A stretch of 64,000 nucleotides of DNA from Bradyrhizobium ottawaense (GTDB lineage Bacteria; Pseudomonadota; Alphaproteobacteria; Rhizobiales; Xanthobacteraceae), in contig NZ_LT629693.1 in NCBI RefSeq assembly GCF_900099825.1, positions 1,488,001 to 1,552,000 on the forward strand. Reading direction: 5' to 3'. A model generated the notes under the pieces. It worked only from the letters and a program-made list of their open reading frames with translations. It ran no database searches and was not told where the DNA came from. Both the position numbers and the translations under genes were made by a program. Within the stretch, counting starts at the first letter, position 1. Every line of letters starts with the position of its first letter. Shown here one piece after another: positions 2,560 through 18,917 of the stretch.

Positions 2560-2733
2560 TCCGCGGGATTGGAGCCCGCATGGTTTCTTTCATCGGACAG
2601 CATGGGGGTGTATGGTCACTACAAGCGAACCCAGCCGGCGGCGCTCGCAAGAGGAATCAACGAGCCGGGTTAGTTCTGCTGCATGCCGCTGAGCCAGGTT
2701 GGTACACACCAAGGCAAACAGGGAGGCAGTACG

Positions 2734-4134
2734 ATGACGATCAGGCCAGACCCGACGTTTCACGCATCGCCGAAGCTTGCGATGGAAGCTCCGCCAGAGC
2801 GTTTCGCCTACACCTTGCTGCTTAGCCCAGACTTTTCAAAGCCCGACGCGCTCGCCGTGATCGACGTCAAGCCTGGCTCTTCGAGCTTCGGTCAGGTCGT
2901 CCACACCGTGACAATGCCCAACAAGGGGGACGAGTTTCACCATTTCGGGTGGAACGCCTGCTCGTCGTCTTTGTCACCGCTCACCGCACACACATTCCTG
3001 GAACGCCGTTACCTCATCATCCCCGGTATCCGATCCTCCCGGATTTACGTCATCGATACCAAGCCGGATCCCACCCTGGCCAAGATTCACAAAATTATCG
3101 AACCCGAGGAAATCTTCAAGAAGACCGGGTACTCGCGGCCGCACACGATCCACTGCGGGCCGGACGGCATTTACGTCAGCACGCTCGGCGGCGGCGGCAA
3201 GGATGGCACCGATGGACCGCCCGGCGTCTTCATCATGGACTGCGAGACATTCGATGTCCTCGGACGGTGGGAGATCGATCGCGGTTCTCAAAACCTGCAC
3301 TATGACTTCTGGTGGAACCTGCCACGCGATTACATGGTGACCAGCGAGTGGGCGTTGCCACCGCAGTTCGAGAACGGAATTGTGCCCGAGGATCTTCTCT
3401 CAAACAAATATGGCCATCGGATCCACTTCTGGGATCTGCGGGCGCGGCGGAATGTTCAGACCATCGACCTCGGCGCCAACCATCAAATGGCGCTGGAGGT
3501 GCGTCCGGCGCATGATCCCGTTCGCGAGTACGGATTCCTGGGCGTCGTGGTCGACACCACAAACCTCGAAGGCTCGATCTGGACCTGGTGGCGCGAGGGC
3601 GGCAGGTTTCACATCGAGAAGACGGCGACGATCCCGCCCGAGCCTGCGTCGAAGGACCAGTTGCCGCCGCTCCTGCAGGGCTTTGGGGCCGTGCCGCCGC
3701 TGGTAACGGATATCGACCTGTCCATGGATGACAAGTTTCTCTACGTGTCCTGCTGGGGCACCGGCGAAATGCGTCAATACGACGTCAGCGATCCCAAAAA
3801 GCCCAAGCTTGCCGGATCGGTCCACATCGGCGGCATCGCACGCCGTACGCCTCATCCGAACGGCAAGGCCTTTGCAGGCGGTCCGCAGATGGTGGAGATC
3901 AGCCGCGACGGCAAACGCGTATACTGGACCAACTCACTCTACTCGACCTGGGACGACCAGTTCTATCCAAGCGGAATACCCGGCGCCGAGGTAATGGCCA
4001 ATGCCAGTCCGGGCGGTGGCCTCGAGCTGGCAAAGGACTATTGGGTCAGCTTCCCCGACGGCTACCGGGCGCATCAGATCCGGCTCGACGGCGGTGACTG
4101 TTCGACCGATTCGTTCTGCTATCCGTCGGTTTGA
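2734..4134 (+). CDS. SBP56 / methanethiol oxidase family protein
   Basis: 466 aa, close to the usual size of the SELENBP1/SBP56 family, members of which are methanethiol oxidases (methanethiol to formaldehyde, H2S and H2O2) with a copper centre. Family landmarks are visible: KGDEFHHFGWNACSSS near residues 60-80, RPHTIHCGPDGIYVS, HYDFWWNLPRDYMV, SEWALPP, YGHRIHFWDL, SMDDKFLYVSCWGTGE and GGPQMVEISRDG. The Cys pair seen in human CSSC is CSSS here. ATG 2734 is preferred because GGGAGG precedes it by 8 bp; the upstream in-frame start has no such site. No signal peptide is apparent, unlike secreted bacterial MtoX. It overlaps a membrane-protein gene; the usual mto partners (SCO1/SenC, MauG) are absent. 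Confidence 0.85.
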   Translation: MTIRPDPTFHASPKLAMEAPPERFAYTLLLSPDFSKPDALAVIDVKPGSSSFGQVVHTVTMPNKGDEFHHFGWNACSSSLSPLTAHTFLERRYLIIPGIRSSRIYVIDTKPDPTLAKIHKIIEPEEIFKKTGYSRPHTIHCGPDGIYVSTLGGGGKDGTDGPPGVFIMDCETFDVLGRWEIDRGSQNLHYDFWWNLPRDYMVTSEWALPPQFENGIVPEDLLSNKYGHRIHFWDLRARRNVQTIDLGANHQMALEVRPAHDPVREYGFLGVVVDTTNLEGSIWTWWREGGRFHIEKTATIPPEPASKDQLPPLLQGFGAVPPLVTDIDLSMDDKFLYVSCWGTGEMRQYDVSDPKKPKLAGSVHIGGIARRTPHPNGKAFAGGPQMVEISRDGKRVYWTNSLYSTWDDQFYPSGIPGAEVMANASPGGGLELAKDYWVSFPDGYRAHQIRLDGGDCSTDSFCYPSV

Positions 4135-4869: not shown

Positions 4870-5325
4870 TCACCGCAGCTTGTTCAACAGCCCCATCAGC
4901 GTCTCGCGCTCTTTGGCGTCGAGCGGCGCCAGCGTTTCCTTGGTGATCGCCAGCGCATTCGGCGCGGCCTTTTCGGCCAGTTGCTGGCCGGCGCGGGTGA
5001 GACTGACCAGCAGGCGGCGACCATCCTCGGGGTCGGGGCTGGTCTCGGTCAGGCCACGTGCGGTGAGGCGATCGATCACGCCCTTGATGGTGGCGACGTC
5101 CATCGCGGTCAGCCGCCCCAGCAGGTTCTGCGAGCACGGCCCGGTCTCGGTCAACTTCGCCAGCGCCGCCCACTGCGCCGACGTCAGGTTGATGCCGATT
5201 TCGCGGGCGAAGATCGTGGCATGGCGCTGCCAGACCTGGCGCAGGATGAAACCGATCTGCTCGTCGAGAATGTAGGACGGCCGCGACGGCTTGACGCTCC
5301 GTTTCGGCAAAACACTCCTTCCCAT
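4870..5325 (-). CDS. MarR-family transcriptional regulator
   Basis: 151 aa with the MarR winged-helix layout: N-terminal dimerisation helix (ILDEQIGFILRQVWQRH), helix-turn-helix around residues 45-90 (LTSAQWAALAKLTETG, MDVATIKGVIDRL), wing at DPEDGRRLLVSLT, and C-terminal helices. ATG 5325 has GGGGAG upstream. It follows livF by 31 bp and is the last gene of the leftward operon that begins with the 6-hydroxynicotinate reductase. Known nicotinate regulators of this family are NicR of Pseudomonas and BpsR of Bordetella, which respond to 6-hydroxynicotinate. By position this is the best candidate for the repressor of the nic palindromes at 13.3-13.5 kb; that is inference. Confidence 0.85.
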   Translation of the reverse strand: MGRSVLPKRSVKPSRPSYILDEQIGFILRQVWQRHATIFAREIGINLTSAQWAALAKLTETGPCSQNLLGRLTAMDVATIKGVIDRLTARGLTETSPDPEDGRRLLVSLTRAGQQLAEKAAPNALAITKETLAPLDAKERETLMGLLNKLR

Positions 5326-5356: not shown

Positions 5357-6061
5357 TCACAATGACAGATGCGCGTCCCGGATATCCGGCCGCGCGTCGA
5401 GTTCGGCCATCGTGCCGCCGAAACAGATCTTGCCGCGTTCGATGATGTAGGCGCGATCCGAGATCAACCGCGCGAAATGCAGGTTCTGTTCGGACACCAC
5501 GATGCTCACGCCCTCTTTCTTCATCGCCAGGATCGCATCGACCATCTGCTCGACGATTTTTGGCGACAGGCCTTCCGAGGGCTCATCGAGTAGCACCAAT
5601 GATGGATTGCCCATCAGCGTCCGCGCGATCGTCAGCATCTGCTGCTCGCCGCCGCTCATGCGACCGCCCGGGCGGTTGCGCATTTCGCCGAGATTCGGAA
5701 ACAGCGTGAACAGCTTTTCGCGGGTCCAGTATGGCGCGTTCGGCCGCTTCGGCTGCTTGCCGACTTCGAGATTTTCCTCGACCGTGAGATCCGTGAAGAT
5801 CCGCCGCTCCTCCGGCACATAGCCGAGCCCGCCGCGCACGATCGCATAGGTCGGCTCGGTCGACACGTCCTTGCCCTCGAACACGATTTTGCCGGAACGG
5901 TTTTGGACCAGTCCAACGATGGAGCGGAACGTGGTCGACTTGCCGGCGCCGTTGCGGCCGAGCAGTGCGACCACCTCGCCCTCACCGACTTCGAGCGCGA
6001 TATCGAACAGGATATGCGCCGGGCCGTAGAAGCTGTTGAGACCCTCGACAGACAGTTTCAT
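5357..6061 (-). CDS. livF: Branched-chain-type ABC transporter ATPase LivF
   Basis: 234 aa cytoplasmic ATPase. Visible: Walker A GRNGAGKST (near residue 35), Q-loop region, signature MSGGEQQML (near 137), Walker B LVLLDEPSEGLSP and the H-region VSEQN. Size and the LSPKIVEQM segment match LivF. It overlaps livG by 4 bp (ATGA). Its place in the operon headed by hydroxynicotinate reductase suggests uptake of nicotinate or a related pyridine carboxylate rather than branched-chain amino acids; that is inferred from context. Confidence 0.92.
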   Translation of the reverse strand: MKLSVEGLNSFYGPAHILFDIALEVGEGEVVALLGRNGAGKSTTFRSIVGLVQNRSGKIVFEGKDVSTEPTYAIVRGGLGYVPEERRIFTDLTVEENLEVGKQPKRPNAPYWTREKLFTLFPNLGEMRNRPGGRMSGGEQQMLTIARTLMGNPSLVLLDEPSEGLSPKIVEQMVDAILAMKKEGVSIVVSEQNLHFARLISDRAYIIERGKICFGGTMAELDARPDIRDAHLSL

Positions 6062-6849
6062 GCGCCGGCCCCCTCGCGGTGGCGCGCATCGTAGACCAAG
6101 CCCTCGCCGAGATAGATGGCGCGCACCTGCGGATTGCCGCGGACTTCCTCCGGCGAGCCCTCGGCGATCAGCGTGCCGCGGTTCAAGACGAGAATGCGGT
6201 CGGCATGCTCGAACACCACGTCCATGTCGTGCTCGGTAAAGAGCACGCCGATCGACTGTTCGCGGGCGATGCGCGCGGTCAGCCGCATCAGTTCGATGCG
6301 TTCGCGCGGCGCCATGCCGGCGGTCGGCTCATCCATCAGCAGCAGCTTCGGCTGGTTGGCGAGCGCGATCGCAAGCTCCAGACGCTTGAGATCGCCATAG
6401 GCAAGCTCGCCGCAGGGGCGCCCGGCATAGGCGCCCATGCCGACGAGATCGAGCAGCCGGCCGGCCTCCTCGCGCGCGCAAGCCGCAGTCGACGTCCACA
6501 GATTGAACAATTGCCGGCCATACGACACCAGCGCAACCTGGACGTTTTCGCGCACCGTCATGGTCGGGAACGTCGCCGTAATCTGGAAGGTGCGGCCGAC
6601 GCCGAGCCGCCAGATCGCGCGCGGCTTCCGGCCGGCCGTATTCTCACCGAGCAACCTGATTTTGCCGCTGTCCGGAATGTTCTGGCCATTGAGCATATCG
6701 AAGCAGGTGCTTTTTCCCGCGCCGTTCGGTCCGATCAGCGCCAGGATTTCGCCGGCGCGCAATTCGAACGACACGCCCCGCACGGCATGAACGCCGCCAT
6801 AGGACTTGCTCAGGTTCTCGACCGACAGCAGTGTGGGGACCATGCTCAT
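6058..6849 (-). CDS. livG: Branched-chain-type ABC transporter ATPase LivG
   Basis: 263 aa starting MSMVPTLLSVENLSKSYGG. The ATG at 6849 overlaps the permease stop (ATGA), which decides the start over much longer upstream extensions of the frame. Walker A GPNGAGKST near residue 43, the LivG-type long loop (ARPCGELAYGDLKRLE replacing the canonical LSGGQ context), Walker B KLLLMDEPTAGMAP and H-loop FTEHDMDVVFEHADRILVL are present. It pairs with LivF to energise the fused permease. Confidence 0.92.
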   Translation of the reverse strand: MSMVPTLLSVENLSKSYGGVHAVRGVSFELRAGEILALIGPNGAGKSTCFDMLNGQNIPDSGKIRLLGENTAGRKPRAIWRLGVGRTFQITATFPTMTVRENVQVALVSYGRQLFNLWTSTAACAREEAGRLLDLVGMGAYAGRPCGELAYGDLKRLELAIALANQPKLLLMDEPTAGMAPRERIELMRLTARIAREQSIGVLFTEHDMDVVFEHADRILVLNRGTLIAEGSPEEVRGNPQVRAIYLGEGLVYDARHREGAGA

Positions 6850-8732
6850 TCGGCGGTCTCGATCCGGGATGTCAGCAACGCCGACTTCGACGCAGAGGAT
6901 TGCCGGCGGTTTTTGATCGTCTCCAGCATGCCGACGATGCCTTTGGGGAATACGACCACGATCAGCACGATGAAGCCGCCGAGCACCAGCTTGGACAAAT
7001 CGGTCTGGCTGACCAGCCAGATGTTGAGCGCCTTGTAGACGATGGCGCCGACCACAGCACCGGACACCGTCTCGACGCCGCCGAGCAGCACCATGACAAG
7101 CGCATCGACCGACAGCGAAATGCCGAGGCTGTCCGGGAACACGCTGCCCTTGAGATAGGCGAACAGCGCGCCGGCCACGCCGGCGACGGTGCCGGCGATC
7201 ACGAAGGCGGTCCACTGCACGCGCTTGCCGTTGATGCCGATGGCCTCGCTGCGCAGCGGCGAGTCCCGCGTCGCGCGCAGCGCAAAGCCGAATGGCGAGA
7301 ACACGATCACCCTGAGCGCCGCGACCGCCAGTGCTGCGATCCCGAGCGACAGCCAGTAGAAACTCGCAGGGCTCGCCGCCCACTTCTCCGGCCAGACACC
7401 CAGAATGCCGTTGTCGCCGCCGGTGACCGCAACCCACTGGAACGCGATCGACCACACGATCTGCGCAAAGGCCAATGTCAGCATCGCAAAGTAGACGCCG
7501 GACAATTGCACCGCGAAGAAGCCGAACACGGCCGCGCCCAGCAGGCCCAGCAGCGGACCGAGCAGCAGCGAGACGATCATCGGCAGTCCCGCCAGCTTGG
7601 CGAGGAACGCGACGCCGTAGGCGCCGAGCCCGAAATAGGCGGCATGACCGAACGAGGCGAGCCCGCCGACCGACATCAGGAAGTGGAGACTGGCGGCGAA
7701 GATCACGAAGATCGCGATTTCGCTTCCGACCGTCAGCGCGTAATTGCCGGCCACAAGCGGCAGCGCCGCCGCCACGATCAGCGCGGCGAGCGAAGCCAGC
7801 CGTTCGCCCGAGGTCAGCGGCCGCCACGGATTGACCGTCAGACCTGGCGTACGCCGCGCCGCGGCTTCCGGTTTGCCAAACAGGCCCCAGGGCCGCACGA
7901 TCAGAACCACCGCCATCACCAGAAACACCAGGATGATGGAGATCTTCGGGAAAATCAGGATGCCGAAGGCGTTCAGTTCGGACACCAGCACCGCCGCGAC
8001 AAAGGCGCCGATGATGCTGCCGAGCCCGCCGATCACGACCACGACGAAGACGTCGACGATGATCCGCAGGTCCAGTGCGTGATGTACGGCATCGCGCGGA
8101 ATCTGCAGCGCGCCGCCGAGGCTGGCGAGAAAGACGCCGAGCGCGAACACGCTGGTGAACAACCATTTCTGATTGACGCCAAGCGCCGCCACCATGTCGC
8201 GGTCCTGCGTCGCCGCGCGCACCAGCACGCCCCAGCGGGTGCGCTGGAACAATAGCCACAGGATACCGAGCACGACCGGACTGATCACGATCAGGAACAG
8301 GTCGTAGCTTGGAATGTTCTGGCCGAAGAAATCGATCGCGCCCTTGAAGCCGGGGGCGCGACGGCCGAGCAGATCGTCCGGACCCCAGATCAGCACCACG
8401 AGGTCTTCGACCATCAGGGTCAGGCCGAACGTCGCCAGCAACTGGAACAGTTCCGGCGCATGATAGATCCGCCGCAGCAGCACCATCTCGACGAGGACGC
8501 CGAGGGCGGCGACGATCAGCGCCGCGGCGACAACGCCGCCCCAGAAGCCGAACGCGCCGGAAAACCGCTCGGTCAGCGTGAACGCGACATAGGCGCCGAG
8601 CATATAGAACGCGCCATGGGCGAAGTTGACGATTCGAGTGACGCCAAAAATGATCGACAGCCCCGACGCAACCAGAAACAGCGACGCCGCGCTGGCAAGA
8701 CCGGTCAGGAACTGAACGACATAAAAGGCCAT
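6846..8732 (-). CDS. Fused LivH-LivM branched-chain-type permease
   Basis: 628 aa from the Met of MAFYVVQFLTG. The first half (about 1-290) is a LivH-like permease (SGLSIIFGVTRIVNFAHGAF; IGGLGSIIGAFVAA), the second (about 310-620) a LivM-like one (GGLASFGHAAYFGLGAYG; LRVIVFSPFGFALRATRDS; LGGVETVSGAVVGAIV). Usually these are two genes of about 300 aa each; here one polypeptide supplies the whole membrane channel. It overlaps livG and is separated from the upstream binding-protein gene by 311 bp of repeats, so processing or attenuation between livK and the permease is possible. Confidence 0.92.
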   Translation of the reverse strand: MAFYVVQFLTGLASAASLFLVASGLSIIFGVTRIVNFAHGAFYMLGAYVAFTLTERFSGAFGFWGGVVAAALIVAALGVLVEMVLLRRIYHAPELFQLLATFGLTLMVEDLVVLIWGPDDLLGRRAPGFKGAIDFFGQNIPSYDLFLIVISPVVLGILWLLFQRTRWGVLVRAATQDRDMVAALGVNQKWLFTSVFALGVFLASLGGALQIPRDAVHHALDLRIIVDVFVVVVIGGLGSIIGAFVAAVLVSELNAFGILIFPKISIILVFLVMAVVLIVRPWGLFGKPEAAARRTPGLTVNPWRPLTSGERLASLAALIVAAALPLVAGNYALTVGSEIAIFVIFAASLHFLMSVGGLASFGHAAYFGLGAYGVAFLAKLAGLPMIVSLLLGPLLGLLGAAVFGFFAVQLSGVYFAMLTLAFAQIVWSIAFQWVAVTGGDNGILGVWPEKWAASPASFYWLSLGIAALAVAALRVIVFSPFGFALRATRDSPLRSEAIGINGKRVQWTAFVIAGTVAGVAGALFAYLKGSVFPDSLGISLSVDALVMVLLGGVETVSGAVVGAIVYKALNIWLVSQTDLSKLVLGGFIVLIVVVFPKGIVGMLETIKNRRQSSASKSALLTSRIETAE

Positions 8733-8768
8733 GGGTGGTCCGCTAGAGCACATTCCAGTGCAGTGGCT

Positions 8769-9043: not shown

Positions 9044-10246
9044 TCAATCCTTCGGGCGAAGCTTTTCGACTTCGGCGTCACCAGGGAGATAGTCGCCGCC
9101 CTTGCGATAGACCGAATCCACCATCACACCCTTGCCGTCCTTCTGCGCGGTCTTGCCGACATAGGCGCCAAGCGTCGACTGGTGGTCGATCTTGCGGAAG
9201 GTGATCTCACCGAACGGCGACGGCATCGACAGGCCTTCGGCCGCCGCGATCAGCTTCTCCGGATCGCTCGAGCCGGCCTTGGCGAGAATCGCCGCCGCCG
9301 CCTTGATGGTCTGGTAGCCGACGATCGAACCGAGCCGCGGATAGTCGTTGTACTTGGCCTGATAGGCCTTGAGGAATTTGTCGTGATCCGGCGTCTTGAT
9401 GTCGTACCAGGGATAGCCGGTGACGATCCAGCCTTCCGGCGTCTCGTCCTTCAGCGGATCGAGATATTCCGGCTCGCCGGTCAGGAACGAAACAACCTTG
9501 CGGTCCTTGAAGAGACCGCGGGTATTGCCTTCACGCACCAGCTTGACGAGATCGGCGCCGAAGGTGACGTTGAGGATCGCCTCGGGATTGGCGGCGGCAA
9601 CCGCCTGCACCACCGGGCCCGCATCGATCTTGCCCTGCGGCGGCCACTGCTCGTCGACCCAGACGATATCGGGGCGCTTCTCCGACATCAGCTTCTTGAA
9701 CACCGCAACGGCGGACTGGCCGTATTCATAGTTCGGCGCGATCGTCGCCCAGCGCTTGGCGGGCAGTTTTGCCGCCTCCTCCACCAGCATCGCCGCCTGC
9801 ATGTAGTTTGAGGGACGCAGCCGGAACGTATAGCGGTTGCCCTTCGACCAGGTGACGGCGTCGGTCAGCGGCTCCGCCGCCAGGAAGAACACTTTCTTCT
9901 GATTTGCAAAATCGCTGACGGCGAGACCGATGTTGGACAGGAAGGTGCCGGTCAGCATCGCGACGTTCTCGCTCGACACCAGTTCGTTGGCTGCGGTCTG
10001 GGCGTCGGCCGGCTTGCCGCCGTCATCCTTGGAGACGACGACGAGCTTCTTGCCGCCAATGCCGCCCGCGGCATTGATTTCCTCGACCGCGAGCTGCCAG
10101 CCCTTGCGATAGGGCTCGGTGAAGGCGGGCAACAGCGAATAGCTGTTGATTTCGCCGATCTTGATCTCGGCCTGCGCCATCGCGTTGTTCGCAAAGCCTG
10201 CGACCGCGATCGCCAATCCCGCGCCGAGCAAATGTCTACGTTGCAT
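9044..10246 (-). CDS. Periplasmic LivK-type substrate-binding protein
   Basis: 400 aa from ATG 10246, chosen because GGAGGG lies 7-8 bp upstream; a TTG two codons earlier is less likely. The N-terminus MQRRHLLGAGLAIAVAGF has a twin-arginine-like pair and a hydrophobic stretch with cleavage after AMAQA. The mature part begins EIKIGEINSYS, typical of the type I periplasmic binding fold (Peripla_BP_6), with ALTG-like segments and YEYGQSAVAVFKKL. It should deliver substrate to the LivHM/G/F channel; with hydroxynicotinate reductase upstream, a pyridine carboxylate is the likely ligand (inference). Confidence 0.9.
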   Translation of the reverse strand: MQRRHLLGAGLAIAVAGFANNAMAQAEIKIGEINSYSLLPAFTEPYRKGWQLAVEEINAAGGIGGKKLVVVSKDDGGKPADAQTAANELVSSENVAMLTGTFLSNIGLAVSDFANQKKVFFLAAEPLTDAVTWSKGNRYTFRLRPSNYMQAAMLVEEAAKLPAKRWATIAPNYEYGQSAVAVFKKLMSEKRPDIVWVDEQWPPQGKIDAGPVVQAVAAANPEAILNVTFGADLVKLVREGNTRGLFKDRKVVSFLTGEPEYLDPLKDETPEGWIVTGYPWYDIKTPDHDKFLKAYQAKYNDYPRLGSIVGYQTIKAAAAILAKAGSSDPEKLIAAAEGLSMPSPFGEITFRKIDHQSTLGAYVGKTAQKDGKGVMVDSVYRKGGDYLPGDAEVEKLRPKD

Positions 10247-10272
10247 CCTCAACCCTCCAAATGTCCGAGAAA

Positions 10273-10857
10273 CTATCTTAGACCGTCTTCGCCTTTGACT
10301 TCAGAAACCGTCAAGCCGCCGACCCGCGGCAATGGCCTGCCGCTGTCGGTAACCGCAACCGCGACCATGATCTCGTTGGCGCGCGGCGCGTCGTTGATCT
10401 GCACCTCCATGCCGTCGAAATGGCTGCGCACGAAGGCTGCGTCCTTGTGGCCGAGCGGGATATCGAGCGTCGTGCCCGGTCCGCTGCGCTTCTTGGACGA
10501 CGGGATCAACGCTGCTCCCTTGCCCAACACCTTGCGCACCGGTGCGCCCATCTTGGGATGCAAGATCGCGGCCGCGTGTTCGAGTTCGCCGTTCTCGCCG
10601 ACGGCGGCGGCCTTGCCGTAGCTGTGCGCCTTGGCGCCGTCGATCCCGAGCGCCGCCACCGCCTTTTTCGACAGCAACTCGCCGAGTTCCTCACCGATCG
10701 CGATCAAGGGCGAGAGGTCCTCGACATAGCGGCCGGCAAACGGGTTTTCGATCACGGCGATCGCCGCCGCCCGCCGGGTCGGTGGCGCGACCTTTTGCCC
10801 CATCTCCAGATGGGTCTCCTCGACCACCGTGACGATTTTGCGAATGATCGCGCTCAT
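10273..10857 (-). CDS. DUF1185 'amino acid synthesis family' protein
   Basis: 194 aa, full length for Pfam PF06684. Recognisable stretches: IRKIVTVVEETHLEMG at the start, ENPFAGRYVEDLSPLI near residues 38-53, SYGKAAAVGENGELEHAAA near 79-97, SKKRSGPGTTLDIPLGHKDA near 120-139 and the C-terminal NDAPRANEIMVAVAV. Structures of this family were described, as I recall, as a chorismate-mutase-like trimeric fold with no assigned reaction. It lies 19 bp after the UPF0280 gene and 20 bp before livK, so it is co-transcribed with 6-hydroxynicotinate reductase. A role in opening or hydrolysing the reduced pyridine ring is a hypothesis from context only. Confidence 0.85.
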   Translation of the reverse strand: MSAIIRKIVTVVEETHLEMGQKVAPPTRRAAAIAVIENPFAGRYVEDLSPLIAIGEELGELLSKKAVAALGIDGAKAHSYGKAAAVGENGELEHAAAILHPKMGAPVRKVLGKGAALIPSSKKRSGPGTTLDIPLGHKDAAFVRSHFDGMEVQINDAPRANEIMVAVAVTDSGRPLPRVGGLTVSEVKGEDGLR

Positions 10858-10876
10858 TTATTCGCCTCGCTCCCGA

Positions 10877-11785
10877 TCAGACATGCACCGTACCCTGTAT
10901 CGCGCGTCCATGAAGCGCCGGCAACGCGCATGTCCCAATTCCCGTCGTTCCCACTACAACCGTCTCGCCCAACAGACGCAAGGCGGCGCTTTCGATCAAT
11001 CCGGCCGCGAACAACTGCTGCGCCTGGCCGGCCCCTGCCCGCAGCGCCTGCTCGACTTCGTTCTCCCCGAGCGCGCCGAGGTCGCGGGTGACAAGGCGCG
11101 CGCCGAGATCGCTGTCCGGCTGCAACTCGTTCGCGGGGCAACGGACAACAGCGGGGTGGCCGGGCAGATCGACGGCGTTGGCGATGATGGTAGCGGCGGC
11201 ATCGGCCTGCGACGCCGTTCGCGCCAGCACGGTGACGGCGTCGGCGATCCCGAGCGAAAAGCTGCGGCCATGGCGTCCGCTGGTGGCGACGCCGCGCGCC
11301 GGATCGTCGGCGTCGATGGTCATCGCGCGCAGCAGGCCATGCCGGTCCGGCCGGTCCATCAGGCCGATCGTGAATTGTTCGCCGTCAGCCAGATGCAGGG
11401 CGATATCGCCGCCATTGTTGACATAGGCACGATCGAGCTGCGCCGCGCCGAGCATGGCGCCGAGAATCTCTTCCGCCACCGAACCCGCTACGGCTGCCAT
11501 CGGCGTGATGAAGTGATCGGCGACAAACGGCGCCACCGCCATGTGCATGCGGCGCGCGACGACGCCTTGCAGTGTGCAACGAACCGGATCGGCCGCCTGG
11601 CGCAATTCAGCCAGTTCCGTGCAGAGTTCATCGAGCAGACCGGTGAAGCGATATGCCGCGGCCTGATAGGCCGCGTGCACGTCCGCGTCGCTGCCTTTCG
11701 CCTCGATGACCAGATCGATCGGACCATCCTGCAAATGCAGCCGCTTGCCGTCAGGAAGAAGCGCCATTTGCGGGAGGCGTTTCAT
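10877..11785 (-). CDS. UPF0280 family protein (ApbE-like superfamily)
   Basis: 302 aa; ATG 11785 overlaps the reductase stop (ATGA), fixing the start. The sequence shows UPF0280 hallmarks: MHMAVAPFVADHFITPMAAV near residues 80-100, GSVAEEIL, DRAYVNNGGDIALHL near 120-135, and GVATSGRHGRSFSLGIADAV near 165-185. The family (COG2122) is distantly related to ApbE flavin transferases but, to my knowledge, has no proven activity. Translational coupling to hydroxynicotinate reductase suggests it matures that enzyme or catalyses a neighbouring step. Both ideas are inference. Confidence 0.85.
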   Translation of the reverse strand: MKRLPQMALLPDGKRLHLQDGPIDLVIEAKGSDADVHAAYQAAAYRFTGLLDELCTELAELRQAADPVRCTLQGVVARRMHMAVAPFVADHFITPMAAVAGSVAEEILGAMLGAAQLDRAYVNNGGDIALHLADGEQFTIGLMDRPDRHGLLRAMTIDADDPARGVATSGRHGRSFSLGIADAVTVLARTASQADAAATIIANAVDLPGHPAVVRCPANELQPDSDLGARLVTRDLGALGENEVEQALRAGAGQAQQLFAAGLIESAALRLLGETVVVGTTGIGTCALPALHGRAIQGTVHV

Positions 11786-13230
11786 GCACGCCGTCCTGGA
11801 ATGTAGGGCATCGGCCGGGTTTCGGTATTGTCCCTCAGCGACGTCAATGGAACCACGTGATCCATATGGCCGCCAAGCGCGGCATAATCGGACAGTTTGA
11901 GCGTGAATTCGATCGGCGCGACCAATGCCGGCGTCGGCACATAGCCGAAGGCGCCCGCCGGCATCTGGGTGACATCGACCATGAAGGTGATGCCGCCGCC
12001 GGGCCAGACATAAACCGGCGCGCCGCCGCTGGTGACCCGCGTCAACGCGTCCTTGACCGACCGCGTCAACCGCACCGGATTGTCGGTGACGCCGGCCCGC
12101 AACGAGCCGCCGGCGCCGCCCATGAACAGCACCGTGCACAGCGCCGGCTCGCAGTTCTCCTGAATGCGTTCGACCGAGAGTTTCAGATCGAGCGGCATCT
12201 GCTTCTCGACCGGACGCAACGCCTCGTCGAGTTCGTAATAGGCCGCGTGCTCGCCAGTGGTCGAGACCATCAGCATGGTGAGCCCCGGCCGCGCCTCCTT
12301 GGGATCGAACGGCCCCAGCACCGACAGCGGATCGGAGATTTTGGTGCCGCCCCAGCCGGTGCCGGGTTCGGCGACCTGGAAGTAACGGCCCGGCGTCGAG
12401 CGCCGGCCCTTCATCTTGATCCCGGTATCGGGAATATCCAGCAGTTTGCCGGCCTGGTGTTCCGAGAGCACGCCGGTGATGTGGTCATCGACGACCACGA
12501 CCTCATCGACCTTGCCGTGCCATTGCTTGGCGAACATGCCGATCGTCGCCGAGCCGCAGCCGACCCGCATCCGCTCTTCCGGCACGCCGTTCACGATCGG
12601 CGGACAGCCCGCCTGCACCACGACCGTGGCGCCGCCATCGACGGTCAGCTCCACCGGCTTGCAATTGGAGAGATCCATCAACGCATCGCAGGTGACGCGG
12701 CCTTCCTTCTTGGAGCCGCCGGTCAGATGATGCACGCCGCCGAGCGACAGCATCTGCGAGCCGTATTCGCTTGTCGTGACATGGCCGATCGCCTCGCCCT
12801 GGGCGCGCACCGTCGCCGTCTCGGGGCCGAGATAGCGGTCGGTATCGATCTTCACCTTGAGGCCGCAATAGCTGAAAATGCCTTCGGTCACGACCGTGAC
12901 CATGTCGACGCCGTCGATCTCGGATGAAACGATGAAGGGCGCCGGCTTGTAGTCGGGATAGGTCGTTCCGGCGCCGATCGCGGTCACGAACACGCTGGGT
13001 TCGTGAACCAGTTTGCCATCCCAGTCGCCGCCGGCCTGGAACGGCACCAGCCGTCCGCCATGCGACACCGTTCGCTCCAGCACGATGTGCGGATCGACCC
13101 GCACCAGTTCGCCGTCGTGATTGGCATAGCGATCGCACGCGCCCGCCGCACCCGGCTTGATGTAGCACATCACCGGACAGGCATCGCAGCGGATCTTGTC
13201 GCCGATGGCGGCGGTCGAAACGTCGGTCAT
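11782..13230 (-). CDS. hnr: 6-hydroxynicotinate reductase
   Basis: 482 aa from the Met of MTDVSTAAIGDKIRCDACP. An upstream extension of the frame exists, but this start matches family N-termini and places the operator palindrome 62 bp upstream, mirroring nicA. The N-terminal cysteines C15, C18, C22 and C32 (CDACPVMC ... ACDRY) look like an Fe-S cluster site; C122 (YCGLKVKID) and C225 (VGCGSATIG) are further conserved-looking residues. In Eubacterium barkeri, Hnr reduces 6-hydroxynicotinate to 1,4,5,6-tetrahydro-6-oxonicotinate with ferredoxin, as an Fe-S flavoprotein. It is the first gene of the leftward operon. Its pairing with nicAB argues for the reductive nicotinate pathway. Confidence 0.85.
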   Translation of the reverse strand: MTDVSTAAIGDKIRCDACPVMCYIKPGAAGACDRYANHDGELVRVDPHIVLERTVSHGGRLVPFQAGGDWDGKLVHEPSVFVTAIGAGTTYPDYKPAPFIVSSEIDGVDMVTVVTEGIFSYCGLKVKIDTDRYLGPETATVRAQGEAIGHVTTSEYGSQMLSLGGVHHLTGGSKKEGRVTCDALMDLSNCKPVELTVDGGATVVVQAGCPPIVNGVPEERMRVGCGSATIGMFAKQWHGKVDEVVVVDDHITGVLSEHQAGKLLDIPDTGIKMKGRRSTPGRYFQVAEPGTGWGGTKISDPLSVLGPFDPKEARPGLTMLMVSTTGEHAAYYELDEALRPVEKQMPLDLKLSVERIQENCEPALCTVLFMGGAGGSLRAGVTDNPVRLTRSVKDALTRVTSGGAPVYVWPGGGITFMVDVTQMPAGAFGYVPTPALVAPIEFTLKLSDYAALGGHMDHVVPLTSLRDNTETRPMPYIPGRRA

Positions 13231-13292
13231 GAACAAGCCTGCAGTTCGGGAGGCCGCGATCGCAGCCCGCGGCGTCGCGGATGCGATCATTT

Positions 13293-13306
13293 GTTCGTAC
13301 ACGAAC
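13293..13306. promoter_or_regulatory. Candidate operator 1 (hnr side)
   Basis: GTTCGTACACGAAC: arms GTTCGT and ACGAAC are perfect complements around AC. It lies 62 bp upstream of the hnr ATG at 13230 and shares the pattern GTTYGTACACRAAC with the site at 13445. Confidence 0.7.
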
Positions 13307-13520: not shown

Positions 13521-14003
13521 ATGACGCAGAGCAAGATGCGCCTGACCGTGAACGGCAAGACCTGCGACGTCGATGCCGCGCCCGACACCGCCTTGCTTTA
13601 TGTCCTGCGCAACGACCTCGCCTTGAACGGACCGAAATATGGCTGCGGGCTCGGCGAATGCGGCGCCTGCGCCGTGCTGATCGACGGCGTCGCGGCGCGC
13701 TCCTGCGTCATCCCGATCGAAGGCTGTGTCGGCCGCGACATCGTGACGCTCGAAGGGCTCGGCTCGCGCGAACATCCCGATCCCGTGCAGCAGGCCTTCA
13801 TCAGCGAACAGGCCGCGCAATGCGGCTATTGCCTGAACGGCATGATCATCACCATCAGGGCGCTACTCAATCGGAGCGCCCGGCCTTCCGAAGCCGAGGT
13901 GATGGAAGCGCTGCGTCATCATCTCTGCCGCTGCGGCGCGCATATCGAAATCAAGCGCGCGGCGATGCGCGCCGCGGGCCATGTCGTCGAGGCGCAGAGC
14001 TGA
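13521..14003 (+). CDS. nicA: Nicotinate hydroxylase small subunit, 2x[2Fe-2S]
   Basis: 160 aa, GGAGG 6 bp upstream of the ATG. It is the iron-sulfur subunit of a molybdenum hydroxylase. The plant-type [2Fe-2S] ligands are C42, C47, C50 and C62 (GCGLGECGAC ... RSC), the second cluster C101, C104, C136 and C138 (CGYC ... CRC). Length matches NicA of Pseudomonas putida (about 157 aa). With NicB it should hydroxylate nicotinate at C6 using water. TGATG overlaps with nicB. Related small subunits serve isoquinoline or aldehyde oxidases, but the Hnr neighbour favours nicotinate. Confidence 0.88.
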   Translation: MTQSKMRLTVNGKTCDVDAAPDTALLYVLRNDLALNGPKYGCGLGECGACAVLIDGVAARSCVIPIEGCVGRDIVTLEGLGSREHPDPVQQAFISEQAAQCGYCLNGMIITIRALLNRSARPSEAEVMEALRHHLCRCGAHIEIKRAAMRAAGHVVEAQS

Positions 14004-17000
14004 TGGCCGCGCCGGACTCTCCCGAACATGGTGAACGGTTGCAGGGAACGCTGACCGTCGTTCGTCCCGCCTCGCCGGTCGAAGCCGTCAGGTTCGAGAC
14101 CTTCATCAGGATCACATCAGACGGATCGGTCACCGCCTATAACGGCCATGTCGATCTCGGCACCGGCATCCGTACCGCGCTCGGGCAGATCGTCGCCGAA
14201 GAACTCGACGTGTCCTTTGCCCGCGTCGTGGTCGTGCTCGGCGATACCTCGCGCGTGCCGAACCAGGGCGCGACGATCGCGAGTGAAACCATTCAGATCA
14301 CGGCCGTGCCGCTGCGCAAGGCCGCGGCGCAGGCACGGCAGTATCTCGTGGCACGCGCGGCGGAGCGGCTGGAGCTTGCGGTCGAAGATCTCACCATCGA
14401 AGACGGATTGGTGCGCGGCAAGGACAACCGCAGCGTCAGCTATGGCGAACTGATCTCGGGCGAAACCATCCGCCTCGAACTATCGGACGAAGTCCCGGTC
14501 AAGGACGTCGGCGCCTATTCCATCGTCGGGCAATCGGTGCCGCGCATCGACCTGCCGGCGAAAGCGACCGGCGAACTGGTCTACGTTCACGATGTCCGCG
14601 TGCCCGGCATGCTGCATGGCCGCGTCGTGCGCCCGCCTTATGCCGGCGTCGATGCCGGCGATTTCGTCGGCACCAGCCTGATCGCCGTCGACGAAGCTTC
14701 GGTACGCGATATTCCGGGACTGGTCGCTGTGGTCAGGATCGGCGATTTCGTCGGCGTCGTCGCCGAGCGCGAGGAGAACGCGATCAAGGCGGCGGCACAG
14801 TTGAAGGTTACGTGGAAGCCCACGCCGACGCTGCCTGATCTCGGCGACATCCCGACGGCGCTGCGCGCCAATCCTTCCGAGCCGCGAACGCTGATCGACA
14901 AGGGCGACGTCGATGCGGCGATCGCAGGCGCCGCCAAGGCCATGCCGCGGACCTATGTCTGGCCGTACCAGATGCACGCCTCGATCGGACCGTCCTGCGC
15001 GGTTGCCAACCATCAGGACGACCAGACGCGGGTCTGGTCCGGCACGCAGAATCCGCACCATCTGCGCACCGAACTGGCGCGACTGATCCACCGGCGCGAA
15101 GCCGAGATCGAGGTGATCCGGCTCGAAGCCGCCGGATGCTATGGCCGCAACTGCGCCGACGACGTTTCCGCGGACGCGGTGCTGCTGTCGCGCGCGGTTG
15201 GCCGCCCCGTCCGCGTGCAATTGACGCGTGAACAGGAGCACGCCTGGGAGCCCAAGGGCACGGCGCAGTTGATGGATGTCAATGGCGGGATGAACGCCGA
15301 TGGCAGCGTCGCCGGTTATGACTTTGCGACGCGCTATCCCTCGAATGGCGCGCCGACGCTGGCGTTGCTGCTGACAGGCGAAGTCCCGAATACGCCCGCC
15401 GTGTTCGAGATGGGCGATCGCACCGCGATCCCGCCTTACGATTACGACCATCTGCGCGTGGTGGCGCATGACATGCCGCCGATCGTACGCGCCTCGTGGC
15501 TGCGCGGCGTCTCGGCGCTGCCAAATACGTTCGCGCATGAATCCTGGATCGACGAGGTCGCGTCCGAGGCCGGTGTCGATCCGATCGAGTATCGCCTGCG
15601 CTATCTGAAGGATTCTCGCGCGGTCGATCTCGTCAATGCGGTCGCGGAGCGCGCCGGCTGGAAGCCGCGGCCGGTGCGGCAGGAGCCGGAAGCCGAGGGC
15701 GATATCGTGCGCGGGCGCGGCTTCGCCTACGCGCTTTATGTCCACAGCAAGTTTCCAGGCTACGGCGCGGCGTGGTCGGCATGGATTGCGGACGTCGCCG
15801 TCAACAAGGCGACCGGCGACGTCAGCGTCACCCGCGTCGTCGCGGGCCAGGATTCCGGCCTGGTGATCAATCCGGACGGCGTTCGTCACCAGATTCATGG
15901 CAACGTCATCCAGTCGACCAGCCGCGCGCTGATGGAGGAGGTCTCGTTCGACCGCTCTTCGGTGACGGCGCGGGAATGGGGCGCCTACCCCATCATCAAG
16001 TTTCCCGAGGTACCGAAGATCGACGTGCTGATGCTGCCGCGGCAGGACCAGCCGCCGCTCGGCGTCGGCGAGTCCGCGTCCGTCCCCAGCGCCGCCGCTA
16101 TCGCCAACGCAATCTACGATGCCACCGGCGTGCGGTTTCGCGAACTGCCGTTCACGCCGGAACGTATCCTGAAGGGATTGCACGGTGAAGAGTCCTCGCC
16201 ATCAGCAGCGTTGCCCGCACCTGCTTCCGCGCCGCCTTCGCGCCTACGGCAAAATCCGTTCGGTGTCCGGCGTGGCGTGCTGGCAACCGCCGCCGCCCTG
16301 TGCGCCGCCGTGGTCGGTATCGGTGCCGCGGTGCTGCCGTGGCGATCAATCGCGCCGATCGCGCGGCCGGATGCCTCGGTCTATTCGGCGGCGACGATCG
16401 CCCGCGGCCAGCAACTCGCGGCGCTCGGCGATTGCGCCGTGTGCCACACCTCCGTGAACGGCATTCTCAACGTCGGCGGCCGGCCATTGCAGACGCCGTT
16501 CGGCACCATCTATTCGACCAACATCACCCCCGATGTCGAAACCGGCATCGGCGCGTGGTCCTATCCTGCCTTCGAACGCGCGATGCGCGAAGGCATCCAT
16601 CGTGACGGCCGGCATCTCTATCCGGCCTTTCCCTACACGCATTTCGCCAGGACCAGCGACGCCGATCTGCAGGCGCTCTATGCCTATCTGATGGCGCAGT
16701 CGCCGGTGCGCGCCGACGCGCGGACAAACGCGCTGGCGTTCCCGTTTAACCTGCGTCCGCTGCTGGCGGGGTGGAACGCGCTGTTCCACAAGCCCGCGGT
16801 ATTCCAGGCTGATGCGAGCAAATCCGAGACATGGAATCGCGGCGCTTATCTGGTCGAAGGTCTCGGCCATTGCAGCGCCTGCCATTCGCCGCGCAACGCG
16901 CTGGGGGCGGAACGGGCGAACGCCTATCTCGCCGGCGGATTTGCCGAAGGCTGGGAAGCGCCGCCGCTGACGTCGCTGTCGCGGTCGCCGATCCCATGGA

Positions 17001-17551
17001 GCGAGGACGAGCTGTTCGCCTATTTGCGCTCGGGCGAATCCCGCTTTCACGGCGTCGCGGCCGGGCCGATGGCGCCGGTCGTGAAGGAGTTGGGCGCGTT
17101 GCCCGACCAAGACATCCGCGCCATGGCGGTCTATCTCGCGTCCTTCAACGAGACTGCCGTCGATCAGCATGCCCTCGCCGCCAAACTCGAAGCCGCGACC
17201 GGCACGAGCGCAGCGGCGGCGGCCAGCGTCGGTGCCCGGCTCTACCAGGGCGCCTGCGCGGTATGCCACGAGGTCGGCGGCGCGCCGCTGTTCGGCAGCC
17301 GGCCGTCGCTGGCGCTGAACAGCAATCTGCACAGCGCGCATCCGGACAACCTGGTTCAGGTCATTCTCCACGGCATTGCGGCACCGGCCTCGTCCGACCT
17401 CGGCTATATGCCCGCCTTCAAGGACAGTTTTACCGACGGCCAGGTCGCCGAACTGGCCTCCTACCTGCGGCGGCAATTTGCCCCGGACAAGCCCGCCTGG
17501 ACCGATATTAACGCGACGATTGGCCGTATTCGGCAGGAACTTGCGCGCTGA
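14003..17551 (+). CDS. nicB: Nicotinate hydroxylase large subunit: molybdopterin domain fused to triheme cytochrome c
   Basis: 1182 aa from the ATG overlapping the nicA stop. Residues about 20-735 form the molybdopterin-binding xanthine-dehydrogenase-like part, ending in the active-site Glu context PLGVGESASVPSAAAIANA. A hydrophobic helix near 755-778 (VLATAAALCAAVVGIGAAVL) would anchor it to the membrane. The C-terminal third carries three CxxCH heme sites at residues 811 (CAVCH), 957 (CSACH) and 1085 (CAVCH). This architecture and length match NicB of P. putida (about 1187 aa), which passes electrons from nicotinate hydroxylation to the respiratory chain instead of to NAD. The cytochrome part should face the periplasm; how the Mo domain is oriented is not shown by sequence. 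Confidence 0.88.
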   Translation: MAAPDSPEHGERLQGTLTVVRPASPVEAVRFETFIRITSDGSVTAYNGHVDLGTGIRTALGQIVAEELDVSFARVVVVLGDTSRVPNQGATIASETIQITAVPLRKAAAQARQYLVARAAERLELAVEDLTIEDGLVRGKDNRSVSYGELISGETIRLELSDEVPVKDVGAYSIVGQSVPRIDLPAKATGELVYVHDVRVPGMLHGRVVRPPYAGVDAGDFVGTSLIAVDEASVRDIPGLVAVVRIGDFVGVVAEREENAIKAAAQLKVTWKPTPTLPDLGDIPTALRANPSEPRTLIDKGDVDAAIAGAAKAMPRTYVWPYQMHASIGPSCAVANHQDDQTRVWSGTQNPHHLRTELARLIHRREAEIEVIRLEAAGCYGRNCADDVSADAVLLSRAVGRPVRVQLTREQEHAWEPKGTAQLMDVNGGMNADGSVAGYDFATRYPSNGAPTLALLLTGEVPNTPAVFEMGDRTAIPPYDYDHLRVVAHDMPPIVRASWLRGVSALPNTFAHESWIDEVASEAGVDPIEYRLRYLKDSRAVDLVNAVAERAGWKPRPVRQEPEAEGDIVRGRGFAYALYVHSKFPGYGAAWSAWIADVAVNKATGDVSVTRVVAGQDSGLVINPDGVRHQIHGNVIQSTSRALMEEVSFDRSSVTAREWGAYPIIKFPEVPKIDVLMLPRQDQPPLGVGESASVPSAAAIANAIYDATGVRFRELPFTPERILKGLHGEESSPSAALPAPASAPPSRLRQNPFGVRRGVLATAAALCAAVVGIGAAVLPWRSIAPIARPDASVYSAATIARGQQLAALGDCAVCHTSVNGILNVGGRPLQTPFGTIYSTNITPDVETGIGAWSYPAFERAMREGIHRDGRHLYPAFPYTHFARTSDADLQALYAYLMAQSPVRADARTNALAFPFNLRPLLAGWNALFHKPAVFQADASKSETWNRGAYLVEGLGHCSACHSPRNALGAERANAYLAGGFAEGWEAPPLTSLSRSPIPWSEDELFAYLRSGESRFHGVAAGPMAPVVKELGALPDQDIRAMAVYLASFNETAVDQHALAAKLEAATGTSAAAAASVGARLYQGACAVCHEVGGAPLFGSRPSLALNSNLHSAHPDNLVQVILHGIAAPASSDLGYMPAFKDSFTDGQVAELASYLRRQFAPDKPAWTDINATIGRIRQELAR

Positions 17552-17612: not shown

Positions 17613-18917
17613 ATGGCAGTTACCGATATTGCATCCCGGACCTACAACCATGGCTGGCGGCTCGATCCGATCGTGCGCAGCCTGCTCGACACCGACTTTT
17701 ACAAGCTGCTGATGCAGCAGATGATCCGGGAGTTCTACCCGGAGCAGCAGGTGACCTTCTCGGTCATCAACCGCAGCAAGCACGTGCGGCTCGCCGAGGT
17801 GATCGACGAGAGCGAGTTGCGCGCGCAGCTCGACCACGCCCGCACCATCCGCTTCTCCAAGAAGGAGCTGATCTGGCTCGCCGGTAACACGTTCTACGGC
17901 AAGACCCAGATGTTCTCGCCGGATTTCATCAACTGGCTCGCCAATTTCCGCCTGCCCGAATACGAACTGCGCAAGGTGGACGGTCAGTACGAATTGCATT
18001 TCCACGGGCCGTGGACCCACACCACGATGTGGGAGATCCCGGCGCTCGCGATCATGAACGAGCTGCGTTCGCGGGCTTCGACCAAGGGGCAAGGCCGCTT
18101 CGTGCTCGACGTGCTCTATGCCCGCGCCAAGGCCAAGCTGTGGTCCAAGGTCGAGCGGCTGCGCAAGCTGGACGGCCTGCGGCTGTCCGACTTCGGTACC
18201 CGCCGCCGCCACGGATTCCTGTGGCAGCGCTGGTGCGTCGAGGCGGTCAAGGAAGGGCTTGGCTCGTCCTTCACCGGCACTTCCAATGTGCTGCTGGCGA
18301 TGGACAACGATCTCGAAGCGATCGGCACCAACGCACATGAACTGCCGATGGTCGCCGCAGCCCTTGCCAACGACGATACCGAATTGCGCTGGGCGCCCTA
18401 TCGCATTCTCGATCAGTGGCGCCATACCTATGGCGGCAACCTGCTGATCGCCCTGCCCGACGCCTTCGGCACCAAGCCGTTCCTGCGCGACGCGCCGGAC
18501 TGGGTCGCCGACTGGACCGGCTTTCGTCCCGACAGCGCACCGCCGATCACGGCCGGCGAGGAGATCATCAAGTGGTGGAAGCAGAAGGGCCGCGATCCCC
18601 GCGAGAAGCTGCTGGTGTTCTCCGACGGCATGGATGTCGGCTCAATCGAGGAGACCTACCGCCATTTTGCCGGCCGTGTTCGCATCTCGTTCGGCTGGGG
18701 CACCAACCTCACCAATGATTTCGTCGGCTGCGCGCCGGATGGTTCGGCCGACCTCGATCCGATCTCGCTGGTCTGCAAGGTGACGTCGGTCGATGGCCGG
18801 CCCGCCGTCAAGCTGTCGGATAATCCCGAGAAGGCCACCGGGTCGGCGTCCGAGGTCGAGCGATACTTACGCGTGTTCGGCAATGCCGGCCGCGTCCGCA
18901 CCGCCGTGCACGTCTGA
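17613..18917 (+). CDS. pncB: Nicotinate phosphoribosyltransferase
   Basis: 434 aa. PncB condenses nicotinate with PRPP, driven by ATP, to nicotinate mononucleotide in NAD salvage. Visible family motifs: [13 protein letters not shown] near residues 20-32, [11 protein letters not shown], the [12 protein letters not shown] segment near 196-207, [10 protein letters not shown] near 223-232, GTNAHELPM near 242-250, the [13 protein letters not shown] region and [11 protein letters not shown]. It starts 61 bp after nicB, so it may be read through from the nic promoter or have its own. The pairing puts NAD salvage and nicotinate breakdown side by side, competing for one substrate. Confidence 0.94.

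Follow-up and report, generated by a model that had tools for sequence, protein, structure and literature searches.

Genes of the hnr locus

The window analysed here, a stretch of 64,000 nucleotides from a Bradyrhizobium ottawaense genome (G000:C1:1488001-1552000), carries genes for a DUF1185 protein, a UPF0280 protein and a homologue of 6-hydroxynicotinate reductase (Hnr) in a row (Table 1; coordinates of the three genes in window numbering). A preliminary description of this DNA had linked DUF1185 and UPF0280 to pyridine breakdown, and the two genes and the tight coupling to hnr that it described are present in the sequence. The hnr stop codon (11784-11782) and the UPF0280 start codon (11785-11783) overlap in an ATGA, and 19 bases (10858-10876) separate UPF0280 from DUF1185. 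The hnr open reading frame spans 11782-13302 on the minus strand and encodes 506 aa from a GTG at 13302, with a possible alternative start at ATG 13230 (Met25).

The DUF1185 protein reached 250.9 bits against PF06684 over positions 1-175 of 175 (gathering score 27 bits), and the UPF0280 protein scored 417.5 bits against NF003322 (curated cut-off 290), which places both in their families. The hnr product had no match in Pfam. It can be assigned as a 6-hydroxynicotinate reductase homologue by its similarity to proteins of that name: relatives with 60-80% identity were present in 26 plasmid records, of which 17 use the name 6-hydroxynicotinate reductase, three read "hypothetical protein" and six list no gene. 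Among the best 80 of 289 loci from a scan of genome contigs, which are close ones, the nearest named relatives were mostly from Bradyrhizobium.

Table 1. Genes at and around the hnr locus, in window numbering.
Feature	Position	Strand	Basis
DUF1185 protein, b-type	10273..10857	-	194 aa; PF06684 ("amino acid synthesis", AA_synth) E=6.4e-75; PDB 2qtp E=1.5e-86
UPF0280 protein (ApbE superfamily)	10877..11785	-	302 aa; NCBIfam NF003322
Hnr, 6-hydroxynicotinate reductase homologue	11782..13230	-	homology to plasmid genes so annotated
ATP-binding cassette (ABC) transporter substrate-binding protein	9044..10252	-	Peripla_BP_6 E=3e-69
Fused permease, same transporter	6846..8753	-	BPD_transp_2 E=1.4e-68, two stretches
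LivG-type ATPase	6058..6850, upper edge approximate	-	ABC_tran within open reading frame 6058-8259
LivF-type ATPase	5357..6061	-	ABC_tran E=1.9e-31
MarR regulator, NicR-like	4870..5325	-	54% identity to MarR of the Sagittula Hnr cluster
NicA-like [2Fe-2S] subunit, nicotinate dehydrogenase	13521..14003	+	Fer2_2 E=1.1e-23
NicB-like molybdopterin subunit with cytochrome c domains	14003..17551, start approximate	+	MoCoBD_1, MoCoBD_2, Cytochrom_C, Cytochrome_CBB3

Co-occurrence of UPF0280 and DUF1185 with Hnr

We compared the distribution of the three proteins in 397 Pseudomonadota genomes, with up to eight (DUF1185), three (Hnr) and five (UPF0280) candidates scored per genome; because only these best few were scored, absences hold at that sensitivity. 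Hnr was found in 38 genomes and UPF0280 above its cut-off in 38, and these are the same 38 genomes, from 19 genera. Matches to UPF0280 below the cut-off in G239 and G319 were not counted as present. The Hnr and UPF0280 matches lie 8-554 bases apart, with a median of 82. DUF1185 was recovered from 74 genomes, namely 37 of the 38 with Hnr and 37 of the 359 without (Fisher test, 3e-30, kinship not corrected for). The co-occurrence that the preliminary description had asked to be counted is thus far above chance, and the link of both families to the Hnr pathway was borne out; an absence of co-occurrence beyond chance, which would have spoken against it, was not seen. Since UPF0280 and Hnr share the same 38 genomes and DUF1185 occurs in 37 others as well, UPF0280 is tied to Hnr and DUF1185 has a broader range. 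One Hnr genome (G134, locus L197) had no DUF1185 match, which suggests that the step served by DUF1185 can also run unaided.

Relation of UPF0280 to ApbE and to Hnr

In ApbE flavin transferases the His of an H-x-x-D/N-P motif is catalytic and an AD-x-x-AT motif provides metal ligands. The UPF0280 protein of the window scored 23.4 bits against the Pfam ApbE family (PF02424), below the gathering score of 25.6. Its closest relatives lie on both sides of that line: 15 of the 120 listed carry the ApbE label beside PF27030, which places the family near the ApbE cut-off. The protein searches each returned the best 120 of 8000 scored candidates, and the comparison therefore covers close relatives (identities of 71-94% for Hnr, 59-100% for UPF0280 and 87-99% for DUF1185) without Firmicute proteins. 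An hhalign comparison of 17 UPF0280 with 12 ApbE proteins gave a probability of 92% and E=8e-7; the aligned region takes in GGD, ATSG and ADxxAT and leaves out the segment with the ApbE H-x-x-D-P motif. Residues A194, D195, A197, A198 and T199 of AD-x-x-AT were invariant in all 17 UPF0280 proteins. The H-x-x-D/N-P motif occurred in 11 of the 12 ApbE proteins and in none of the 17 UPF0280 proteins, among which we found neither an invariant His column nor an invariant Cys. Judged by sequence, UPF0280 is a true ApbE relative. In 16 of the 38 Hnr genomes, among them that of the window, no canonical ApbE above the cut-off was found, and the match below the cut-off in G149 was UPF0280 itself, at the same place.

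6-Hydroxynicotinate reductase, which reduces 6-hydroxynicotinate, contains covalent flavin and iron-sulfur (Fe-S) clusters. A GGAT tetrad in Hnr had been described as a near fit to the usual flavin target. Its position at residues 199-202 is right when counted from Met25 (223-226 of the 506-aa frame), but the acceptor is not conserved: T226 is Thr in seven and Glu in five of 17 diverse Hnr proteins (A1); among 50 closer relatives (A3), 40 have Thr there. The motif [ST][GSA]A[ST] was present in only one of 19 scanned Hnr proteins, at residue 74 of that from L205, and by this comparison Hnr has no conserved S/T-G-A-T/S flavin acceptor. Seven Cys residues are invariant, four of them in C-x2-C-x3-C-x9-C (39, 42, 46 and 56 in the 506-aa numbering) and the others at 146, 249 and 384. 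When 17 Hnr proteins were compared with Pfam at E<=10, 16 showed a weak GCV_T_C match (best 0.0016), and the remaining matches were isolated strays. Structure prediction from 50 sequences was poor (mean predicted local distance difference test score, pLDDT, 52.8), and Foldseek with this low-confidence model gave no match at E<=0.001. At one further locus (L206, G016:C1:2969823-2971189) the Hnr match was split into two overlapping pieces that lie in separate frames, a broken gene or an assembly error.

UPF0280 is most likely a maturation factor dedicated to Hnr, acting in cofactor or sulfur chemistry, rather than a catabolic enzyme. Of the two roles considered in the preliminary description, service to Hnr fits best with the strict pairing and with the 16 Hnr genomes in which no canonical ApbE above the cut-off was found. 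We describe it as a maturation partner dedicated to Hnr, with no particular chemistry assigned, because a sulfur or Fe-S role would fit as well as a flavin role. UPF0280 is a family that we take to be COG2122. Homocysteine formation in Desulfovibrio depends on COG2122, for which a role with persulfide has been proposed (PMC5764234). That UPF0280 itself carries out sulfur or Fe-S chemistry for Hnr, in analogy to the part proposed for COG2122, together with DUF39 and NIL/ferredoxin proteins, in the synthesis of homocysteine, appears somewhat unlikely when taken as the specific role. NF003322 reaches proteins of M. acetivorans and M. jannaschii below its cut-off, and Hnr has invariant Cys residues outside the four-Cys motif; both speak for this role. 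Against it, UPF0280 has no invariant Cys, and none of 17 Hnr proteins matched DUF39 or NIL at E<=10 in a scan that drops most matches above 0.1.

E. barkeri Hnr is said to carry a covalent flavin, and UPF0280 could be a flavin transferase that links flavin mononucleotide to a residue of Hnr outside GGAT. We consider this specific role unlikely. The strict pairing with Hnr, the kinship to ApbE seen both in Pfam and in the profile alignment, and the Hnr genomes that appear to do without a canonical ApbE all speak for it. The score below the Pfam cut-off, the missing H-x-x-D/N-P motif and invariant His, and the near absence of the acceptor motif from Hnr speak against it, as does the service of COG2122 to homocysteine synthesis elsewhere (PMC5764234).

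Enamidase and HyuA-type hydrolases

Neighbourhoods were plotted for 43 Hnr loci (37 genome loci, five plasmid loci and the window), around which either an amidohydrolase or a HyuA/HyuB pair was recurrent. The amidohydrolase of a Comamonadaceae plasmid (query L174:8973-10172) matched PDB 2VUN, an enamidase, at 2.4e-111. The window's own genome encodes a relative with 69% identity to this query at C1:1483052-1484212, about 3.8 kb before the first base of the window; a ferredoxin-NADP reductase relative is encoded divergently from it. The earlier statement that no enamidase is seen holds for the window and fails for the genome; the gene was missed because the window edge falls 3.8 kb after it. 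An enamidase both encoded elsewhere and required had been named as a finding that would count against the two candidates as pyridine enzymes, and the first half of this, encoding elsewhere in the genome, was found.

Enamidase was present in 23 of the 38 Hnr genomes (60-91% identity) and a HyuA resembling the Sagittula protein in 17 (61-83% identity; next best 45%). Two genomes (G122 and G170) have both and none has neither, so that each of the 38 offers a candidate ring opener other than DUF1185. Enamidase relatives at E<=1e-40 occurred in 25 of the 397 genomes (up to four candidates scored in each); as the Hnr genomes with enamidase and the two without Hnr both carry DUF1185, all 25 enamidase genomes have DUF1185.

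In the 17 genomes with HyuA, and at loci such as L173:3519-7258(-) and L171:15017-18852(+), a HyuA/HyuB pair of the hydantoinase/oxoprolinase type replaces the enamidase, with HyuB seen only near some loci. The HyuA/HyuB family includes 5-oxoprolinase, which opens a lactam at the expense of ATP. Judged by this family membership, HyuAB could possibly be an ATP-dependent lactam opener for 1,4,5,6-tetrahydro-6-oxonicotinate (THON), and the alternation of enamidase and HyuA-type hydrolases suggests a second ring opener for the nicotinate pathway. A HyuA-type ring opener for the reductive nicotinate route was not found in the open-licence PMC literature searched. The window itself contains a HyuA paralogue at 49544-51568(-) with 37% identity to the HyuA of nicotinate clusters, and HyuA relatives in its genome reach only 37%.

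DUF1185 subtypes and their gene surroundings

A DUF1185 tree was built from 113 rows, after removal of three rows that were not DUF1185 (second matches in L225, L227 and L232). It contains two nicotinate clades, a and b, and the window protein falls in b. Genomes were assigned to the b-type by hand from this tree. The b-type was found in 24 of the 38 Hnr genomes, namely every one of the 23 that have enamidase plus a single genome, G332, among the 15 others (Fisher test, 1.6e-9). The Hnr tree offers four independent pairs that differ in enamidase, and, averaged over 200 pairings, b tracked enamidase in 3.9 of the four; G016, with Hnr in two pieces, was excluded from that tree, and G336, a twin of G334, was left out of the fetched loci. 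In G122 and G170 (L255 and L257) the Hnr locus has only an a copy, and an a+b pair adjoins the enamidase gene, in convergent orientation, at a locus with no Hnr match. It may be that a and b subunits assemble together into mixed hexamers.

The association with ring-hydrolysing enzymes extends beyond Hnr loci. Two enamidase relatives with 41% identity, in genomes without Hnr (G235 and G199), lie directly behind a DUF1185 gene on the same strand (L215:4080-5910(+) and L228:5077-6848(+)). The surroundings in G235 include an HpaB-type monooxygenase and an ABC transporter, and in G199 a FAD_binding_3 monooxygenase lies beside the pair; the G199 enamidase relative matches 2VUN at 3e-100. These loci perhaps belong to other pyridine routes. 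In its second major setting, DUF1185 stands with genes for an alpha/beta hydrolase, a flavin reductase, a luciferase-like monooxygenase and an aldehyde dehydrogenase, arranged in a row. An alpha/beta hydrolase lies within 6 kb of 29 of the 113 rows, 25 of them also with the luciferase-like monooxygenase. One such hydrolase had as its best PDB match alpha-(N-acetylaminomethylene)succinate hydrolase (3kxp, 3.5e-16), with 3-oxoadipate enol-lactonase and RutD close behind. By analogy this setting looks like the trigonelline cluster, and we label it tgn-like on that ground. Altogether 92 of the 113 rows fit an association with a ring-hydrolysing enzyme (57 at Hnr loci, for which the enamidase or HyuA gene may sit farther away in the genome, four at loci with enamidase only, the two 41% cases and 29 tgn-like loci). 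Some neighbourhood tables contain unnamed neighbours that are unsure, as gene picking at times took the wrong overlapping frame; the counts rest on the others. Of the 21 rows outside these groups, eight form part of a fumarylacetoacetase-like/TctC clade. DUF1185 proteins beside genes for fumarylacetoacetase-like proteins, TctC, zinc alcohol dehydrogenase or glyoxalase were seen at L237, L252-L254, L265 and L266.

From these surroundings, DUF1185 probably travels with ring-hydrolysing enzymes and finishes their step. Hydrolysis yields 2-formylglutarate in the nicotinate route; the corresponding product of the trigonelline route is 2-formylsuccinate, or the enamine of this acid. Such alpha-formyl dicarboxylates lose ammonia or amine and carbon dioxide to become semialdehydes. 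Because the products of the two routes are homologous, we place DUF1185 after hydrolysis. It would act right after ring hydrolysis on 2-(aminomethylene)glutarate or on 2-formylglutarate, in the enol or aldehyde form, and would speed a step that is slowly spontaneous, whether deamination, tautomerisation or decarboxylation to glutaric semialdehyde. TgnF would do the same for the C5 homologue in trigonelline breakdown. Roles as a RidA/RutC-like deaminase or as a tautomerase are kept within this proposal, because gene context cannot separate them from a decarboxylase.

After removal of two long-branch rows (L263 and L216), residues K82, E91, E93, H94, R108, R144, H146, D156, E162, R174 and R178 were conserved to at least 80% in each of five DUF1185 subfamilies. 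An AlphaFold2 model of the window protein from 22 sequences (mean pLDDT 48.4) was too poor to judge the fold, which is known for the relatives 2qtp and 3byq. An improbable alternative is that DUF1185 is a non-catalytic helper, that is, a chaperone, scaffold or regulator of the hydrolase or of the next dehydrogenase. In favour of a helper, TgnF, a DUF1185 homologue, is reported only to stimulate succinic semialdehyde (SSA) oxidation by TgnE (PMC7913881), and the characterized proteins form hexamers whose assembly possibly depends on pH or salt (PMC2954203). Against a helper, the retention of a charged set in five subfamilies whose partners differ suggests an active site, although part of this set, engaged in salt bridges, is known to lie at the subunit interface (PMC2954203).

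YjgF-family monomers share their fold class with Bacillus chorismate mutase. The suggestion that DUF1185 itself opens or hydrolyses the tetrahydro ring could draw on this, since a Bacillus-chorismate-mutase-like fold has been reported for DUF1185 (PMC2954203), an origin from monomers of the YjgF family has been proposed for AtzD, a ring-opening amidase (PMC3758960), and Lys82 and Ser145 are conserved; it is nevertheless highly improbable, because an enamidase or a HyuA-type hydrolase is encoded in every one of the 38 Hnr genomes, Hnr genome G134 had no DUF1185 match, and the family also stands beside unrelated hydrolases in clusters without Hnr.

Other genes of the window

The remaining genes of Table 1 fit a nicotinate cluster. 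A relative of the substrate-binding protein with at least 53% identity was present in 23 of the 43 plotted Hnr loci, the window counted, and its substrate is probably nicotinate. The NicA-like subunit is 57-61% identical to its counterparts in three named plasmid clusters (L172, L174 and L175). A nicotinate phosphoribosyltransferase gene at 17613-18917(+) adjoins nicB, as in three of ten other plotted Bradyrhizobium loci (L176, L177 and L207), and perhaps provides salvage alongside breakdown. An SBP56-family protein is encoded at 2683-4134(+), between the enamidase and the transporter genes, and has the same position in L176, L177 and L207.

Proposed pathway and division of labour

The best explanation, which we hold with moderate confidence, would be a cluster for the reductive route of nicotinate breakdown, in which UPF0280 is the maturation partner of Hnr and DUF1185 acts on the ring-opened product. 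By homology, with the reactions taken as background knowledge, NicAB would oxidise nicotinate to 6-hydroxynicotinate, Hnr would reduce this to THON, and the enamidase encoded 3.8 kb outside the window would hydrolyse THON. This implies a division of labour, UPF0280 with Hnr and DUF1185 with the enamide hydrolase. Gene content, pairing, the alternation of ring openers and the link between b-type and enamidase were observed here; the two reactions we infer. More tentatively, DUF1185 may represent an undescribed enzyme class that converts the alpha-formyl dicarboxylates (or their enamines or enols) released by enamide hydrolases to semialdehydes, shared by the nicotinate, the trigonelline-type and two further pathways, and UPF0280 may be a member of the ApbE superfamily that has been remodelled to mature a single reductase.

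Several observations weigh against this proposal. With respect to UPF0280, its COG2122 relatives function in making homocysteine, a setting for which no connection to flavin was shown (PMC5764234), and at the widest gap between Hnr and UPF0280 (G155) a MarR-like match lies in between. The link between DUF1185 and the hydrolases comes from gene context, and kinship inflates the counts. The b clade had a support of 84 and was not starred, and with only four pairs a sign test cannot attain the 0.05 level. Moreover, b also occurs in three of the four HyuAB-bearing plasmid clusters (L172, L173 and L175, not L171; plasmid records only), which speaks against a strict rule that joins b to enamidase. 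In 21 of the 113 DUF1185 rows no such hydrolase lies nearby, and the contexts are fumarylacetoacetase-like/TctC genes, a flavin adenine dinucleotide monooxygenase or others. As for the reaction, TgnF is said to act with SSA and not with a formyl acid, and in coumarin breakdown every attempt to detect an effect of the DUF1185 protein HcdD failed (both PMC7913881). Finally, the E. barkeri enamidase deaminates unaided (PMC9304392), and a DUF1185 deaminase would therefore be redundant.

The association of DUF1185 and UPF0280 with Hnr is already known, as is the cluster in outline. A reaction for UPF0280 with Hnr, or for PF06684 beyond the reports cited here, was not found in the open-licence PMC literature. 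The PF06684 label "amino acid synthesis" derives from fold and context alone. Our proposal places the family in the breakdown of N-heterocycles, at the reaction that follows hydrolysis of the enamide or ring, with a testable substrate class. UPF0280/COG2122 is a long-standing unknown of methanogen homocysteine synthesis, and Hnr, as a strict second partner in aerobes, offers a genetically easy case for study.

Comparison with known systems

As in the Eubacterium barkeri nicotinate pathway (Hnr and the enamidase 2VUN), the window's genome encodes an enamidase relative. E. barkeri reduces 2-formylglutarate, whereas Azorhizobium decarboxylates it. The window is another copy of the reductive nicotinate cluster of Bradyrhizobiaceae SG-6C and Azorhizobium, and the Hnr of SG-6C is 42% identical to that of E. 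barkeri (PMC3511419). Section 13 of that account assigns no reaction to either protein and does not describe ring openers that alternate.

The trigonelline cluster tgn of Acinetobacter baylyi likewise places a DUF1185 homologue, TgnF, in a ring-cleavage pathway that ends in a semialdehyde; its hydrolase belongs to a different family, and the skeleton is C5. The COG2122/UPF0280 proteins of homocysteine synthesis (M. acetivorans MA1715 and Desulfovibrio) are of the same superfamily as the window protein, but their partners are DUF39 and NIL/ferredoxin proteins, whereas the partner here is Hnr. With the ApbE flavin transferases UPF0280 has GGD, ATSG and ADxxAT in common, and it differs from them in the lack of H-x-x-D-P and a score below the Pfam cut-off. 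Of the DUF1185 structures SPO0826 (2qtp) and BB2672 (3byq), the first is closely related to the protein encoded in the window (E=1.5e-86). Both were tied to amino-acid metabolism through their fold and a transporter context (PMC2954203); here such a transporter stands in a nicotinate cluster.

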